Source: Ricordea florida (lineage: Eukaryota; Cnidaria; Anthozoa; Corallimorpharia; Ricordeidae). From it: a DNA stretch of 64,000 nucleotides. The translations under genes and the position numbers were made by a program. Positions 41,202-51,800 of this stretch are shown in pieces. The stretch covers positions 7,774,632 through 7,838,631 of the forward strand of contig OX453285.1 in assembly GCA_949710005.1 (NCBI GenBank), given 5' to 3'. Every line of letters begins with the position of its first letter. Position 1 is the stretch's first letter. The notes under the pieces were generated by a model. That model was not told where the DNA came from, made no database searches, and worked only from the letters and a program-made list of their open reading frames with translations.

Positions 41202-44200
41202 GTTCATTTCTATAGCGCTCACATCCACTAATTGCCCGAGGCGCTTTACAAAACTAAAATTAAAAATTAAAATTAAGAATAAGAAAAACTAGAATTACCA
41301 GAATTAAAAGTTAAAAATATGATAAAGAGTTGCGCTTAATAAATTTAGTAAAAAAGAAAGTCTTGAGCTTTTTCTTGAAAAATGAAACTGTACTAGATTG
41401 ACGTATTTCTAAAGGTACCGTGTTCCAAATCTTCGGAACGCATACAGAAAAAGCTCTATCACGATATGTTTTAGTTTTACACGTTGGCTGCATTAGCAGG
41501 TCTTGAAAGTTCGAGCGAAGAGATCTAGTTGATTTCAGACGATGGAAGAGTTCTGTTAGATATTGTGGGCAAAGACCATTGAATGATTTTTCAATCTCTA
41601 AATTGTAGGTAGTCAAATGCAATATTATTTTATTCTACACTGTAGTGCCAACTACGTTGACATTTGAATAAAGTGAGTCCTATTATGCATTTGTAAAGGT
41701 AATCATACGGTTTCGAGTTTAATTTGGAATTAATTTGCGCGAGTGAGTTTCTTAAGAAGCAGAAATTGCACGAGCCGCATCGGTGAGTACAATTTCAGCT
41801 TTTTGAAAAACTCACAAGTGCAAATTAATTCCAAATTGAACGAGAAAAACCGTATGATTACTTATTAATAGTATAAACATGAAAAAATTCGCCTGAAGGA
41901 AGTGCCGGAAGATCTCATTGCGGACAGGAAGTGAGCATTTGACGCGGATTTGACACTTTATTTACTGATTGGCTGATGAAGATCAGCTGATAACGCTACG
42001 AACTCAAAGCGGTTCGTTTAAAAATATTTGCTCATGGAAATCGTCGAAAAAAAAATCGTCGATGTGTAATTTGCATTGGTGTTACACTTTTTGCACTGGT
42101 GTTGCACTTTTTTGCACTGGTGTTGCACTTTTTTGCACGGGTGTTGCACTTTTTTGCACTGGTGTGACACTTTTTGCACTGGTGTTACACTTTTTGCACT
42201 GGTGTTGCCCTTTTTGCACTGGTGTTGCACTTTTTGCACTGGTGTTGCACGTTTTGCACTGGTGTTGCACTTTTTTGCACTGGTGTTACACTTGAACGAC
42301 ACTGCTCTCAGCCAATCAGAATCGAGTAATTTTTTCATGTATATTATTAGTGCCATAATGATTGTAGTTCTGTTAAATGAATTGCTTATTTTTCCATCTT
42401 CCTTAACCGTAAGATTAGAAGTGTATTGCTAATTAGTACATACCACACAAGTGAATAGTGCATTTCGCGAGTTCTGATTGGTTTACTTGGAGGTGATTAG
42501 CAAATTACCATTCAGCTCCAAGCAGCCGAAGAGAAACAAAACGCCCTCCCGTTTCGGTTTCCGAAGAAGAAATTATTTGAATAATCGCTAGTTAATTAGC
42601 TTGTTTGGTATATACTAAAAAAGTTATTCACCTCAGTGTCGATGAAAGTGGTGGATATGTGCCTCGCCGCTTCGCGGCTTGGTAAATATCCACCACTATT
42701 CACCTTCACTTCGATAAATAATTGTTAATTATTGTATTGATCACCTCTATCATTATGGTCTTTTCTCTTTAGGTTGTCGATGCAGGGGATGTCATATTGG
42801 AAGTCTTAGATGCACGGGATCCCATGGGCTGCCGGTGTCTGCAGGCGAGTTATACTGTACAGCTGTTTATGTACAACACAAGCTACAGGTTTACATGCAC
42901 AGTGTAAGCATGCACAGTTAGGCACACCAAATGAACCCTGTTGTGCCAGATGCGGAACTGTTCACAGTTAAGTTCACCCCCCCCTTCCCCCTCTCTCTCT
43001 CTCTCTCTTAAGTAATATTGTGGGGGCAGTGAAGCTTAGAATAAAACAAGACGCTCTCAGTGCGCGCACTTGTGCCTTGTGCCTACTCGTGATTAAACAA
43101 ATCGGACTCCCGCTACGCGGTCGTCCGATTTTGTTAATCACTCGTGTGATTACAGACCGAATTGGACTCCACTCAGGGTCTGTTGTTTCCGAGATAATGG
43201 TTACATGAATGACTGTGTAATATCTCATGTAATTTTGCAACTTTTAACACAGGTAGCTCTTACACTGTCGTGCAGAGTGCATCCTTCCCTTAATTAAAAT
43301 ATTTTATTATATAGACACGAGTGTTTTACTGGAAAATATACCACTCGTAAAATTCATAAAAATTACATCCGGGACCCGAGTGGTTTATTTTCCATAATCT
43401 CATACGTGAGTTTATCGATGACGTAATTTCGGTAATTTCCCACCGAAATTCTTTTTGTCTATATAATATAAAGAACATTACACGGCGGCTTGAAGATATG
43501 AATTTATTTTCTCGTGGCAAAAACAATATTTTACTCACTCGCTGCGCTCGTTCGTAAAATATTGTTTTGCCACTCGAAAATAAAATTCATATCTTCGCGC
43601 CACCGTGTAATATGCTCTATGTAAATTTCTAGTCTGCAGTTTCGTACATGCATTTACATGTTCACTTACTTGAATGCAATTTCTGATTTCTTTTTCCAGG
43701 TTGAACAATCAGTGCTGTCATCTGGGATAAACAAGAAATTGGTCCTTGTTCTTAACAAAATTGGTAAGCTATTTGGCCTGCCTCGAATAGCCTTGCTAAC
43801 TGCAGGCCAGTCCCAATGTATCTTTTGTTATATATTTAAATAAAGTTGTTGTTGTTGTTGTTGTTATTTGGACCATCACTATGTAGTACCTCAGTGTAAT
43901 TGATCGCAGTTTGTCCTGGCAGTGGCTTTGGTTGACAGAAGAAATGCACGTACCTCTGAGCTCTAGAAGTAGAAATAGAATGTGTAACACTTACAGCAAA
44001 CCAATAGGCCTTATTCGTATTCCCGGACTAGCCTGGGACAAGTATTTTTTTCGCGCGAAAGTGCACGAAAGCGAGGCTCATGCGGGGGAAAATGAAAAAA
44101 ACTCTTTGACACAACTGGAAAAATCAGGCGAAAGTCTCCTTGGTTTGCAGTATTTGAAGTTGAAATCATGGTTAAACATAATTGCTGTGCTTATGCGTGC

Positions 44201-47200
44201 TCCAACAGCACTGAAAAACAAAAAAACCGTCTGAAATATCCAGAACTCAAGGAAATAACATTTCACGCTTTTCCTATGGGCGACCGAAAGAAGACTTACG
44301 CACCCGAAATGAATGAAAGCGAGAGAAGAAAAAGGTGGATAGCTGCTTGTCGTTTGAGCAGTTTAAATGTCACAAGACATACACGAATTTGTTCAGCACA
44401 CTTCGAAGGTGGATTAGGACCCACAAAGCTTAATCCGGTCCCAACAATTTTCAGTTTTCCGACTCATTTGCAGCCCAAAACCCAACGGAAGCGAACAGAT
44501 CCAGAGGAAAGAAGACGAGGAGCTTTGAATTGTTTACAAAACAAAACCAAGACTGCACCAAGGGAAAAAGTAGGTAAAGCAACAAGAACAAGGAAAACCA
44601 AGAACCAGAGGGCCTGTCATCACAACTCCAGGTAACTGCGTGTTCGAGCGACATGGATTTTATTTTATCTGAGGAGAGTGAGATGAAAACTGAACAGGCA
44701 CCTGATCCAAGGTCCCTTGCAGACAAGTGTATCCAAACTGACCTTACTTGTGAAGATATCGGCTGCATGGAAGCAGCCAAGGCTAAACTGGAAAATAAAC
44801 CAGAACTGAAGAGAGAAATGTTTATAGATGACGTGCTGAAAAGCAACAAGTCTGTATGTTTCTACACTGGACTGCCCTCCTATGCCTGTCTTATGATGTT
44901 GTTCTCCTTTCTTAAACCTCTTGCAAATACAATGAAATATTGGGACAACAAGAAAAAGGGACAGAGGGAAACATATCAGGTATCTTAATTTCATTTATTT
45001 TAACATTAATAACGTTCTTGTACAGCAGTCTTGTTATTAATATTTCCTTTCAGTTGGTCTCAAACATTGAAAATTATGGCATAAAATGTTTCAGTTTTGA
45101 TATTAATGGTAATACAACATTCTAATTCTAAAAATTATAAGATTATTGCATAGGAATGTTTGCCTCATCAACTCAACTCTGCACATTTTTACTTCACAGG
45201 AAGATGAACATGTTGGCAAGCCTGGACGAAAGAGGCAGATGTCATTATTTGCTGAATTTGTAATGGTACTTGTGAGACTCAGCCTTGGACTGCTACAGAG
45301 TCACCTGGCTGACATTTTTGCAATTTCTCAAAGTTCAGTTTCCAAGATTTTCACCACTTGGATTAATCTTCTGTATCATGTATTTAAGGAAGTTCTTATA
45401 ATATGGCCTGCAAAGGTTCAAATTCAAAAGCACATGCCCAAGAGCTTTAGTAAGTATCCTCGGACCCGTGTAATTATTGACTGTACAGAGTTCTTCATAG
45501 AGAAGTCCACTCAACCTTCTGCTCAAAAAATTACTTGGAGTGACTACAAGTCACATAACACTTTCAAACTTTTAGTTGGTATTTCACCATCAGGAGCGTT
45601 CACATTTGTCTCTAAACTTTGGTCTGGGGGAGTCTCTGACCGTAATATTACCCAGAAATCTGGACTGATAGACAAGTTGGAGCCTCTAGATGATGTGATG
45701 GCTGATAGAGGATTTAATATTAGAGATATGGTCACAAAGAAAAAGGCCACATTAAACATTCCCCCCTTTGCAAAGGGGAAGTCCCTTTCAACAAAGGCAT
45801 GTACAAAAACCAGGAGAATAGCTGCAGTTCGCATACATGTGGAAAGAGCAATCCAACGGCGTAAGTGTTTCCGAATTTTACGTGGTGTAATACCTATCAC
45901 CCTTGCTGCAGTTGCCGATCACACTGTGTTTGTTTGTGCATCACTGTGTAACTTAATGAAGCCTCTTGTTTCAAAGTAAATGTAGTTTTCAAGTGTCCAA
46001 ATAAATCAATTAATTTTAATCAAACTAAACTGTAGCAATGAACATGTAACCCATTAGCTACTAGGTATGAGTGGAATGGTCATACATTAACACAGGCTCA
46101 GTGTGACAAAAGGTCTGTCTCTAGAAGCTGAGTCTCTACATTATATGTATATCATTAGTTATTATCCATACTGTGTTACACTCTACGAGTCTGGCCATAT
46201 TTAACCTTTGGAAAAGCTAGCTCTGGTAAAATGACTGAGTCAAAAAACAAATCCAGCTTAGCTAGCACTGGAGACCAAAACTCTTGATCAAATAACACTT
46301 TCTCAACATAAATACCACCACCGTGGCCACAAGCAACAAATATCCCCCAGGGATAAGTTGTTGCAAACATTTGTTGATGTAGTTGATAAAAGTATTTATG
46401 ATTTCTATTAAGGGCTATACCATTACTTCGTTTTACACAAATATGCTGTTTCAGTAAAATATCTTGAAGGGTTTCCCCTGCTTTCACCTGAAGAAATTTC
46501 ATTTCAACAACACCTGGGCTAGACTCGGATTGATCATACATAATTCTATCTGGAGAGGCACCAATATGTCCGTGAGTCTTGCTTATGACAAATCCACACT
46601 TTTCCACTCTTACATCAGAATGACCATTCTGTTCCATGTATTTTATTAGTGCCTGTTCAATTTCGTCTTCCTTTTCCAAGCCCTCCTTCATGGCAGTTGT
46701 TAAAGGGACTTGGTTATAACTCAAAACCTCCCTTAAGGCTTTAGTCGGAGACCTGGTTGCTTTCAAGCTTGCGATTCGTTTACAGTGAGAAGCTGTGATT
46801 CTTCCTTTTTCACTAAATCAATTTCATCATCTGTAAACTGAAGTTTTCTTTTTATTGCCTTTCCCCTTTCTTTAATCTCATCCAGACTGGGTGGCAGAGG
46901 TTTCATTGGTGACAGAGAATCTAATGTAAATGTACGAGCAACAGGATTTTCTTCTCTTGTGTCATTTATATTTTCTGGATCAAGCTGATGATTTAGTTGA
47001 CTATTCTCTGGGTCGGGTAACAGGTGCAGTAATACAGCTGAAGGAACAGTTTCAGCCACAAGCCTTCTAAAATTCTCAGCCAAATTTACATTTGCATCAT
47101 ATGAAGTCCTGGGGTCATAAGTATCACACCTGGGTTTCAGTCGCTTCTTTTTGTCCTTGTTCATTGTGGGTTTAGTAAAGTCCATGTCTAATGCTTGTGT

Positions 47201-48839
47201 CATGCCCTCATGAGTCCTCTTCCTTTGTTTCCAAGTACATTTCCTCCCAGTGCAGGTTATTACAACATTTTCTCTTAGTGTTGCTTCAAGGTCAATAAGC
47301 GAGGCACCAATGTGTCGGCAAGCACCATCAGCCTTGATCAAGAAATCAGGAATTAGGAAAAGTTTCAACAGAAATATTTTGATTAGCAAAGTCAAAGTTT
47401 TAAATATTAAATAAAATTACATTATTCTGAAAGCCATAGACTTCACATAATTCAGATGTACTCAACAATTTGGAAATGAAGTACAAAATCTCACAAAGCT
47501 GCAAATTATTATTTTGTATATTGCCAAATATTACCCTTCTGTCAAAAATCCATGAACTCACCCTCCTGTACAAGGACAATGCGCTGTGTAAACTGATCCA
47601 TCTGACTGAATTATTATCCATCCATCATAAGTTGGTTTCTGTCCAATTTGCGTTTTCTCTCGTTCCGTTGGCTTTACTCCAAATTTCACGTAGTGGTATC
47701 CACTAAACAAGTTCTTGTTGTTCATCAATTTTAAGACATGGCCATCCCAAAACAGGCGAAAGCCTTCGAACGACTTGTATGCCTTGAGAGACTCATGATC
47801 ATAGCCCTCCTTGTTGATTAAGTAAGCATACATGTCACCGGATGTGAAGTTCGGAAAATCAGAAAAGTCAGAAGTCCAGTCAGAGTGTAACGTGTTGGGA
47901 CAGGGGAGCGAACCTTGCGTAGTCTGCAACTTATTGACTATCACATCCTCCGGTTTCTCCCCATCGTCGATCGGTTCTAGTGAAAGATCGCGAGCTTTCT
48001 CCACCAATTCTACCAGTTCCTCTTTTCTCTTTTGCGAAACGGTTATTCCACGGCTCTGTAAATACGATTTCAACTCAGGAACTTTCCATTTTTGAACTTC
48101 ATTCTCTGCAGCTTCAGCCATATTAGAAAACCCAAATCCCCCGCATGAGCCTCGACATCGTGCACTCGCCCAAGGCCGTCCGGGAATACGAATAAGGACT
48201 ATTGTCAAAGGCCAAAAGAACGTATTTATCTTGCTTAAAACGTCCTCTTTACAGGGAATAAAATAGTTTTTTAATGATTCAGTTACTTGGTGACCATTTC
48301 TAGGAGTAGACTGCAAGCAGTTTCTCTTCTTTGTCGCTATTTCAGAGCGAGCAGAAATCGACTGAGCAGAGATGGTTTAACAGTAGGAGCTATCTTGTTC
48401 CTGTCGCATTTCCCTGTGTGGGGATCCTCTTTAATTTTCTTGTTTAGTCTTGATGAACGAAGGGAAAGATGGTTTTACATGCATCGCTAATTGGTCGGTC
48501 TAGCTGTCGGAAAACTGGATTAACTTGTTGAGCGTAGCCCTATGAAAACTAGATTTACTTGTTGAGCGTAGCCCTATGAAAACTGGATTTACTTGTTGTG
48601 CTTGGCCCTATCAAAACTAGGTTTATTTGCTGAGCTTGGCCCTATGAAAACAGGATTAACTTGTTGAGCTTGGCCCTATGAAAACTAGATTTACTTGTTG
48701 AGCCTGGCCCTATGAAAACTGGATTTACTTGTTGTGCTTGGCCCTATCAAAACTAGGTTTATTTGCTGAGCTTGGCCCTATGAAAACAGGATTAACTTGT
48801 TGAGCTTGGCCCTATGAAAACTAGATTTACTTGTTGAGC

Positions 48840-48873
<34 letters not shown>

Positions 48874-51800
48874 TGACATAGTTCCCAGTGTGGTGGTCTA
48901 TCTCTATATCTTGTTTCATCAGTCATTTCATGTATGGGTTGGGTGGGTGGGTGAGATCATGTATGGACTGATAGCGGCAGCCAGAGGCGCCTTTACATGC
49001 TGACGTCCGATCTCACCCAGTAGAAGTGTAAAGCGCCTTTGAACATATTCATATGAAAAAGTGCGCTCTATAAATTCATTATCATTATCATTATCATTAT
49101 GAAAACTAGATTTACTTGTTGAGCTTGGCCCTTTGAAAACTAGATTTACTTGTTGAGCTTGGCCCTATGAATACTGGATTTCATGTAACTTGTTGGGCTT
49201 GCGCTCCTTGTTACTAGGATTTTTCTGTGCTCGCAGTAATCACGCCACCACACTTCAGCACAAACGTTGCAAAGCCTCAAACGATTCCTAGTCTTGGTCA
49301 GAGTTGCTCTAGGAAAACTGGATTTACTTACAAAAACCCGATGTTATTATAAGTATTTTCTTTCTTCATTTTTAGATCTTGTTCCCAAAGAGATTGTGGA
49401 TAAGTGGCTTAAATACCTACGTAATGAATTTCCTACAGTAGCGTTTAAAGCATCCACGCAAAGTCAAAAACAGACTCTGGTAAGTCCTCTACTTTGGTAT
49501 GTCCTCCACTCTGTCTTATCGGAGCGCGTGTATTGGTTGGTTGATTCTTGGTCATGTGCCGCCGATCAAATTTTAAATGTATCTCGACAGGGATACAATT
49601 GCCCAGTTGTTGCCCGCGCCGCAATTGTGCCGTCTTTGTTTGCTTGTTTTTGCTATATTTTGTTTCAGGGAAAGTCTAAATATATAACAAAGCACTTAAC
49701 GTATGGTCCCGCGGGAAACTAGTTAGTTTTGTTTTCCCTCGAGTTCTGATGTTTCCCTCGACTTCGTCTCGGGAAACATCAGGACTTTCGGGAAAACAAA
49801 ACTAACTGTTTCTCTAGGGACCATACATTAAGTATACATTAATATCAGTCCCTTCTTTCAAAGTACACGTACCGTTTTTTGTCAGGCAAGCCCGCTATTA
49901 TATTCAAGAGAGCTGTTTTCTTTTCGCAGCATCAAAGTAAAGTTTCCGCGTCGTTGGCACCAGGGAACCTACTTTCGTCCAATGCATGTTTAGGAGCAGA
50001 AACGTTACTAAAACTCCTTGGAAATTACTGTCGCAACAAGGACATCAAAACAGCGATTACAGTTGGAATAGTTGGTACGTTTATGGGAGTAAATACAGTC
50101 AAATCTGCTTATAACGATCAGGATCAATGGACGTAAGTGGGCAACTGTGCACCTACCCCTCCCCTAACCCAACAAGTTATAATAAGTTAAAAAGTTAGCG
50201 TTAATGTTGGGTTAGGGGAGGGGTAGGTGCACACTTGCCTTGATACCTCGATTGATCCAACGATCACCCAGGTGGGCCGGTGATATATACAGTGCGACGG
50301 CTAATTACAAGCTTCCTTTAAACATCACTGGAAGTTAATGAATAAAGTTTTATGCGAAAATACTCACTCTACATGGGTGGATCTAGGATTTTTGTCAGGA
50401 GGGGGTGCGCCTGTAGCATGATATTTGTGACTTGTAGGAGAGGAAAGACCTACTACGTCATGAATATCATTGGCCAATTGTAGGCGCTGTTATATACCAT
50501 GGTATTTCATCACAGCCTATGCGCTGGAATAAAACCTGTCTTGCTATTGGCCATATCGTTCTATGACGTGTCAGGGTCACAGCCATCACGCTATCAGCTA
50601 TTATCGGTGAATATTCACCTCGACTTGATTCACCTCGACGGCTGATTGGCTCCTTCACTCACTCAATCACTCGTGTTTCCTCTGACATATTGGCTCCTGC
50701 ATTATTTCATAGCGGAGCTCCACAGCGGCTCGAAGAGCCGCAGAGCGGAGCCCCATAACTACCGTGCGAGGATAGAAATTGAGAAAACCATGCGTTTGAG
50801 TTTTCATGGTCATCGTGGCTAGCGGCATGGCTCGCGGGCGCGTGCGCCTAGCGACGACGACGACGACGACGTTGCCCCAACATGGCGGCCATAGTCACCC
50901 GGGATATTTAGAAGGTCTTAAACCGAAACGAGGCTTTGTTTTTCGCGCGCTTTTCGCGGCTTGCCGTGGCTACACAACCTACAGCCAGCAGTCTACAGCA
51001 ATCTACAATGTTTTGCTGAAGAAACGAATTATTCATAGCGGTTTTGGAGGAAAAATTTTCTTCCTACAAGTTTTCAAGCGTTTTTGGAGGGACATAAGCA
51101 TAAAGCTGAGTGTCTATTTTTCATTTGTTAAAGAACTGCCTAGCTGCTTTTGGTGTTGCTTTAAGAGTATTATAATTTTGCTGACCAGGTAATGGTTGAG
51201 TCGCGAGCCAGATGTTTTTTTTACGATTTATTTCAGCTATCGAATCTTCTTTAAGTAGTTGCGTACACCAGGCGTATTTAATAACTTTAGTGACAGCATT
51301 TTCAATGTGTGAGGGTCTGTGTGAGGAGCTCCGCTTTTAGGCTTGCCTAAATCTATTAATTAAAACTTGGTTCATGTACCAACAACTACAAATAATTTGT
51401 TTGATAAGCTCTACCAGCTGAGCTATAAGCCAGTTGACGGCTGGCGATGGGAGTGGTCGAATAGGTAAGAACTGATCTGCCCGCATTCTGTGATATATTA
51501 CAACGATTCTGTAAACTAATCCTTACCCACATTAAGTATAAATACCCAGGTGATTATACAAATCGCGCGCTCTGATTGGTATGCTATCTCGGATTATCAG
51601 CCGATATCACCTCGACGAACAAAATGGCTACCAGTCGTTCGCGTGCTTTTGATGAAATAAAATTTTTTCGTGTTGTACAATGCTTTTTCTTTTCTTTTTT
51701 TGAAATAATCACCTGTGTATTTATATTAAAACAATTTTTCGCCTCAGGCTCAGTGATTATCTGAATATTCACCGATAATCACTTCGTCTTCAGCGAATAA

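Follow-up and report, generated by a model that had tools for sequence, protein, structure and literature searches.

What does a nuclease do in a DNA transposon that already encodes its own transposase? The question is raised by a locus of the corallimorph Ricordea florida, in a 64,000-nucleotide stretch of contig OX453285.1 (C14:7774632-7838631 of the 538-Mb genome; hereafter the window, whose positions give all coordinates of the element). It contains a 4195-bp element in which a transposase gene faces a second gene, here called the partner, for a YqaJ-type nuclease. The functions of such additional genes in the superfamily, and any link to transposition, are stated to be unknown in the accessible text of PMC4482050. 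The evidence supports the window element being an inactivated copy of an ISL2EU transposon, a further family of a known group. We tentatively propose that it is the relic of an autonomous cut-and-paste element, and that in the live family the partner nuclease may resect excision breaks 5'-3' and so steer copy repair.

An inactivated ISL2EU transposon in a GTPase intron

The element, its ends and its two genes are arranged as follows:

44006..48200, no strand: whole ISL2EU element, 4195 bp, from inverted ends, AT on both sides and comparison with sister copies
44004..44005, no strand: left target-site duplication AT, from AATT with a single AT in 8/8 empty sites of the sister insertion L021
48201..48202, no strand: right target-site duplication AT, on the same empty-site basis (L021)
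44006..44037, plus strand: left terminal inverted repeat; the arm 44002-44037 takes in four flanking bases
48169..48200, minus strand: right terminal inverted repeat, pairing with the left one
44060..44089, plus strand: left subterminal inverted repeat, 90% complementary to 48137-48166
48137..48166, minus strand: right subterminal inverted repeat, partner of 44060-44089
44168..44979, plus strand: transposase exon 1, whose reading frame is interrupted by the loss of one base near 44580
44183..44449, plus strand: THAP domain (Pfam PF05485, E 1.9e-12)
44980..45199, plus strand: transposase intron, which yields an open 531-aa frame in the sister copy L017
45200..45979, plus strand: transposase exon 2, with HTH_Tnp_4 at 45236-45388 and DDE_Tnp_4 at 45476-45952
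47562..48121, minus strand: nuclease exon 1, with the SAP domain at 47993-48097 and the first half (CxC) of the SWIM-like motif
47334..47561, minus strand: nuclease intron, whose 3' splice AG is AA in the window copy
46176..47333, minus strand: nuclease exon 2, with the second SWIM-like half, a linker and YqaJ at 46353-46808; a 49-base loss near 46804 breaks the frame

The terminal arms (44002-44037 and 48169-48204) are 36 bases each and 86% complementary, and an inner second pair of 30 bases is 90% complementary. Within the window the 20-base terminal sequence occurs at the two element ends only, and it gave 0 matches in 100 shuffles. The initial annotation had recognised a transposon with inverted ends at 44002..48204; the transposon stands, but its exact bounds are 44006-48200, with four flanking bases trimmed from each arm. 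Eight family copies were looked at for their ends. L020 and L022 have no clear right end, and the six with both ends readable (the window copy, L017, L018, L021, L023 and L024) have AAT at the left and ATT at the right boundary. These bounds alone are compatible with either a longer inverted repeat or a duplicated AT. The derivative L021 was inserted into the edge of another repeat, and a search with its joined flanks gave at least 22 matches crossing the joint. All eight empty sites that were read have TAATTG(G/A)C across the site. AT is single in the empty and double in the filled sites; the element therefore targets A|AT|T and duplicates AT, in agreement with the ISL2EU elements described in PMC4482050. 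With AT taken as the duplication, the ends begin with AGG and AGT, shifted by one base from the usual GG.

On the plus strand THAP, HTH_Tnp_4 (E 3.5e-14) and DDE_Tnp_4 (E 1.2e-43) all match above the Pfam cutoffs, in agreement with the predicted THAP/HTH/DDE gene, and the DDE residues D, D and E are kept in 15/15, 16/16 and 16/16 aligned domains. The convergent gene had been described as SAP-SWIM-YqaJ. Its SAP (E 9.7e-8, 31.9 bits against a cutoff of 23.9) and YqaJ (E 1.8e-8, above cutoff; E 1.2e-10 in sister L017) match on the minus strand, so that the proposed profile search found both THAP and YqaJ. The SWIM part is a motif call only, without profile support in the window family: CPC...CRH (CxC...CxH) is joined across the nuclease intron, the SWIM profile has no match in the 590-aa partner protein of L017 at E up to 0.1, and in the relative L030 it reaches 14.6 bits, below the cutoff of 19.6. 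The assignment to ISL2EU follows from the THAP, HTH and DDE domains, the YqaJ second gene, the convergent order, the inverted ends, the AT duplication at A|AT|T and the further copies, and it bears out the original identification.

The search for other copies that had been suggested found the ends shared by several. A search with the first 259 bases found the whole left end in at least four copies, the window copy, L017 (98.8% identical to it), L018 (98.2%) and L020 (97.6%). Against these three sisters the window copy shows two losses, a single base between THAP and DDE (near 44580) and 49 bases near 46804, at the start of YqaJ just before the GRITAS motif. Furthermore, the 3' splice site of its nuclease intron (47334-47335) reads AA, whereas it is AG in L017, L018 and L021-L024. 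The statement that all catalytic residues are present holds residue by residue but is misleading, since the two losses and the change from AG to AA break both genes. Neither gene of the window copy can give a full protein, and the copy is inactivated in both. L017 is the only one of the three sister copies read with both frames open, a 531-aa transposase and a 590-aa partner; L018 has a stop inside the nuclease gene, and L020 a 716-base insertion and a 1001-base deletion. The same search found at least 11 further copies without about 71 bases ahead of the start codon. Four of these were read (L021-L024) and have a common internal deletion of about 1.65 kb, which takes away the YqaJ catalytic domain and the latter half of DDE, and eight transposase fragments in the genome search stop at the same residue. 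For their movement these deleted derivatives must have depended on enzymes from another source.

The element lies within the following feature of its host gene:

43764..49375, plus strand: intron of a GNL3-type GTPase gene, between an exon end at 43763 and an exon start at 49376

Three host exons joined give 76 aa, for which the best match among solved structures is guanine nucleotide-binding protein-like 3 (8fkp_NB, E 1e-24); in Pfam this peptide has GTPase matches below cutoff only. The intron of a GTPase gene is thus confirmed as the location, as is the sense/antisense placement, with the transposase sense and the nuclease antisense to the host gene. An autonomous element would have entered an AATT site in this intron and then decayed. 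Domestication by the host was considered for the window copy and rejected, because the copy retains its ends and duplications but has lost both open frames. A aaaactggatttacttgttgagcttggccctatg-type repeat array was noticed by eye in the same intron, near the element, at 48517-49180.

The gene pair and its nuclease across the genome

The initial interest lay in what the nuclease does, which the dead window copy alone cannot show; a comparison of families does bear on it. Genome searches gave at least 147 transposase and at least 150 YqaJ matches, and 28 stretches (L017-L044) were read around hits chosen from the match lists, not at random. Transposase and nuclease genes lie tail to tail in 24/24 read loci having both genes, seven of which belong to the window family and its derivatives; an eighth, L019, is a 73% relative. 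L042 has an additional YqaJ on the other strand. YqaJ alone was found in L025, L026, L029 and L038, and the sequence neighbouring that of L029 is N. The partner genes of L025 and L026 are 57% identical to those of the window family, with no transposase within the 9 kb read.

The transposase and YqaJ domain trees are concordant over 16 locus pairs (Mantel r=0.690, p=0.0001, by a permutation that ignores shared ancestry), also with the Ulp1 clade described below left out (r=0.568, p=0.0001) and with one per clade (r=0.558, p=0.0002). Residues E85, P124, D125, E140, K142 and Q180 are invariant in 19 aligned YqaJ domains, of which L018 is 99% identical to L017, while 14 of the 18 others are just 21-30% identical to the first. 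In the alignment to lambda exonuclease, D125 falls on the PDG position and E140-K142 on the ExK position. A profile of the 19 domains matches LHK-Exo (3.4e-20), mimivirus R354 (1e-13) and lambda exonuclease (7.5e-9), and in PHROGs the nuclease matches a RecE-like exonuclease (2.8e-14). An AlphaFold model of the YqaJ domain has a mean pLDDT of 90.7, and Foldseek ranks LHK-Exo and lambda exonuclease at the top for it, followed by R354 and herpesvirus nucleases. In 32/32 comparisons pN was lower than pS, a sign of purifying selection that gives a direction only, synonymous sites being saturated. Together, the sequences and the model support the view that the partner is a working nuclease of the lambda-exonuclease kind, probably inherited together with its transposase. 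Searches of IMG/VR gave pattern matches and no confirmed relative for the DDE, YqaJ or A1 queries, and a phage search with DDE gave no match.

Relatives with PHD fingers and an Ulp1 protease

In four loci a single partner frame combines a SWIM-like motif, YqaJ, two ING-type PHD fingers and an Ulp1/C48 protease:

L031:2877-5858: 994 aa
L037:1499-4195: 899 aa
L039:2116-4749: 878 aa, cut by a stop near the end, after the Cys box; two other L039-type copies are open at 897 aa
L040:1381-4293: 971 aa

The SWIM-like motif of this clade is CxxC...CxH. The Ulp1/C48 profile exceeds its cutoff of 20.7 bits in all four (L031 25.9, L037 40.0, L039 25.1 and L040 41.2 bits), and the proposed Ulp1 catalytic residues H889, D907, Q939-Q941 and C947 are invariant in the four frames. 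Each frame has two PHD zinc patterns, with the proposed zinc residues invariant throughout; Pfam PHD gave no match above cutoff in these four partners. A profile of the four frames matches the ING fingers of YNG1 (2.1e-9), ING3 (5.1e-9) and ING1 (1e-8), as well as R354, and also SENP and Ulp1-like proteases (the latter two at 4e-5 and weaker). In ING-type PHD fingers a W before FH helps to read methyl-lysine. The matched ING fingers have this W; at the corresponding place PHD1 has T, S, E or Q and PHD2 has F, which makes methyl-lysine reading doubtful for PHD1. A structure model of the 994-aa fusion had a mean pLDDT of 33 and was unusable. The partners of 13 other loci, several of them scanned as single exons, gave no C48 match.

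At least 26 transposase frames of 519 aa that are 98-100% identical, and at least 24 partner frames of 994 aa, are of the L031 type, which shows that this element has spread recently. Eleven copies were read at their ends; AT is found on both sides in ten, and TT/AT in one. Among the Ulp1 matches listed (the best ~150 of 193, with equal counts from 92 or 150 rows), one lies no more than 7 kb from the transposase in 27/27 L031-type copies, 9/9 of a group with 59-61% identity and 11/12 others, thus beside the transposase in 47/48 copies of the two-gene groups. As a control for these neighbour counts, 145 YqaJ matches were weak, with a neighbour for 1/12 of the mixed group and 4/9 of the 59-61% group.

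The window itself contains, at 43303-43623, a repeat of about 320 bp, half of it palindromic, that is 96% identical on both sides of the L031 insertion. It represents an empty paralogue of the L031 insertion site, with AATT and AT once. That it is an internally deleted L031-type derivative was considered and rejected; by eye, ten other copies have no such sequence at the corresponding places, and the L031 element sits inside the repeat. Elsewhere, six Ulp1-like fragments, each with internal stops, lie about 18-21 kb apart in an array (C9:9800725-9895745), and an Ulp1-type match lies within a 2067-aa open frame adjoining a 571-aa ISL2EU transposase frame (C3:33836525-33837061).

In this one clade the second gene could have become a repair-and-chromatin machine that reads chromatin, strips SUMO and resects the break left where the element excises. 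It would then parallel the RAG1-RAG2 layout independently; we regard this reading as possible but rather doubtful. A YqaJ-PHD-Ulp1 transposon protein was not described in the open-literature titles and abstract openings searched (Repbase and most subscription literature lay outside this search), and no claim of priority is made.

Possible roles of the nuclease, and known systems

In the live family, the THAP-HTH-DDE protein would bind the inverted ends, excise the element and, with a stagger of 2 bp, join it to A|AT|T. The partner, with SAP, SWIM-like and YqaJ parts, would travel with the transposase as an active nuclease of the lambda-exonuclease kind and would resect the ends 5'-to-3' at the excision break. 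Resection would then direct repair towards copying, with a sister or homologous element as template, whereby the element would be restored or multiplied. This appears to be the most likely role of the partner; its activity, polarity, substrate and role in repair, like the binding of the ends by the transposase, are what we infer. Resection is favoured since strongly diverged sequences have retained the active site, whereas their remaining modules differ: SAP is above cutoff in the window family, and PHD and Ulp1 are present in one clade. Internal deletions, which interrupted gap repair would be expected to leave, occur often: the window copy lacks 49 bases, L020 lacks 1001, and 4/4 derivatives read lack about 1.65 kb.

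Several points weigh against this proposal. Internal deletions occur in nuclease-less elements too, catalytic activity is predicted from sequence and a model, and the selection ratios are qualitative given the saturated synonymous sites. The loci were picked by hand, with 7/24 from the window family. Furthermore, among the matches listed, only 1/35 copies of a group with a 548-aa transposase (C6:56103 and others) has an Ulp1 match within 7 kb, and by eye 21/35 have no stop in the listed catalytic part of the transposase. The sole locus of this group that was read directly, L045, retains only the N-terminus of the partner. Since 34/35 copies are without a listed Ulp1 partner and that of L045 is truncated, a nuclease in cis seems unnecessary and the partner dispensable there; a supply in trans by related two-gene elements is possible.

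The strict gene pairing and the invariant active site would also suit a nuclease acting inside the transposition reaction and, ahead of joining, trimming flanking bases or the non-transferred strand from the excised ends. In line with this, Kolobok, another DDE superfamily, has taken up different nucleases, including a lambda-exonuclease-like one in KolobokE, according to the accessible text of PMC9587614. We consider this distinctly unlikely, however, given that Spy relatives encode the transposase alone (PMC4482050, as accessible), that native Spy transposases are active (accessible part of PMC11304231), and that nearly all copies of the 548-aa group have no listed Ulp1-bearing partner nearby. 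A second protein that is mainly a DNA-binding or recruiting cofactor, with SAP and SWIM-like parts that guide the transposase to the ends and a nuclease activity that is secondary, is unlikely as well. SAP does lie above its Pfam cutoff, and as the second gene of the element the partner resembles the Myb-like gene of Harbinger, whose transposition in vitro requires both genes (accessible text of PMC9179366); yet the catalytic residues are invariant in 19 domains, which is unexpected for a mere binding role.

A clade that has amplified recently fuses two PHD fingers to Ulp1 and retains the proposed catalytic residues. This fusion would be compatible with a second protein that counters the host, its nuclease, PHD and Ulp1 parts removing silencing chromatin or SUMO marks or protecting the transposase. 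This we judge improbable. None of the 13 other loci scanned has a C48 match, no host target is known, and in PHD1 the position ahead of FH is not aromatic, unlike in the matched ING fingers.

If the nuclease does repair its own excision break, the element would be a self-contained copy-number device. The PHD and Ulp1 fusion would link a DNA transposon directly to SUMO and histone signals. The window copy itself is ordinary; its fresh relatives with the PHD-Ulp1 fusion in the same genome are of more interest. This genome offers material on the role of the partner: at least 26 transposase frames of 519 aa and at least 24 partner frames of 994 aa, target sites that have been established, and lineages that form a natural deletion series.

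Among known systems, the element is closest to the ISL2EU group of the PHIS superfamily as described in the accessible text of PMC4482050 and PMC9179366, with which it shares a THAP, HTH and DDE transposase, a separate YqaJ protein and the AT duplication at A|AT|T. Its length is similar, 4195 bp against a published average of about 4840. The published ends usually start with GG, whereas those of the window copy start with AGG and AGT, and its partner adds a SAP domain and a SWIM-like motif that these texts, as far as accessible, do not mention. With lambda exonuclease, LHK-Exo and mimivirus R354 (PD-D/ExK, YqaJ), the nuclease has in common a profile match, the modelled fold and the invariant E, D and ExK; it differs from them in its fusion to SAP and a SWIM-like knuckle, and is 14-21% identical to the chains of LHK-Exo and lambda exonuclease. 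KolobokE and KolobokD (accessible text of PMC9587614) are likewise DDE elements with an added exonuclease, lambda-exonuclease-like in KolobokE, but of another transposase superfamily. A Crypton with a C48/Ulp1 peptidase (PMC3212892, as accessible) shares an Ulp1-type protease with L031, L037, L039 and L040, not with the window copy; it is a tyrosine recombinase element, and the accessible source reports no fusion to YqaJ or PHD. RAG-like transposons (accessible text of PMC7204232) combine, tail to tail, a DDE enzyme and a PHD-bearing accessory protein, which parallels the PHD-bearing ISL2EU clade only. The core of that accessory protein (kelch) is unrelated and the transposase is of another family, and the parallel is thus a likeness in layout, not membership.

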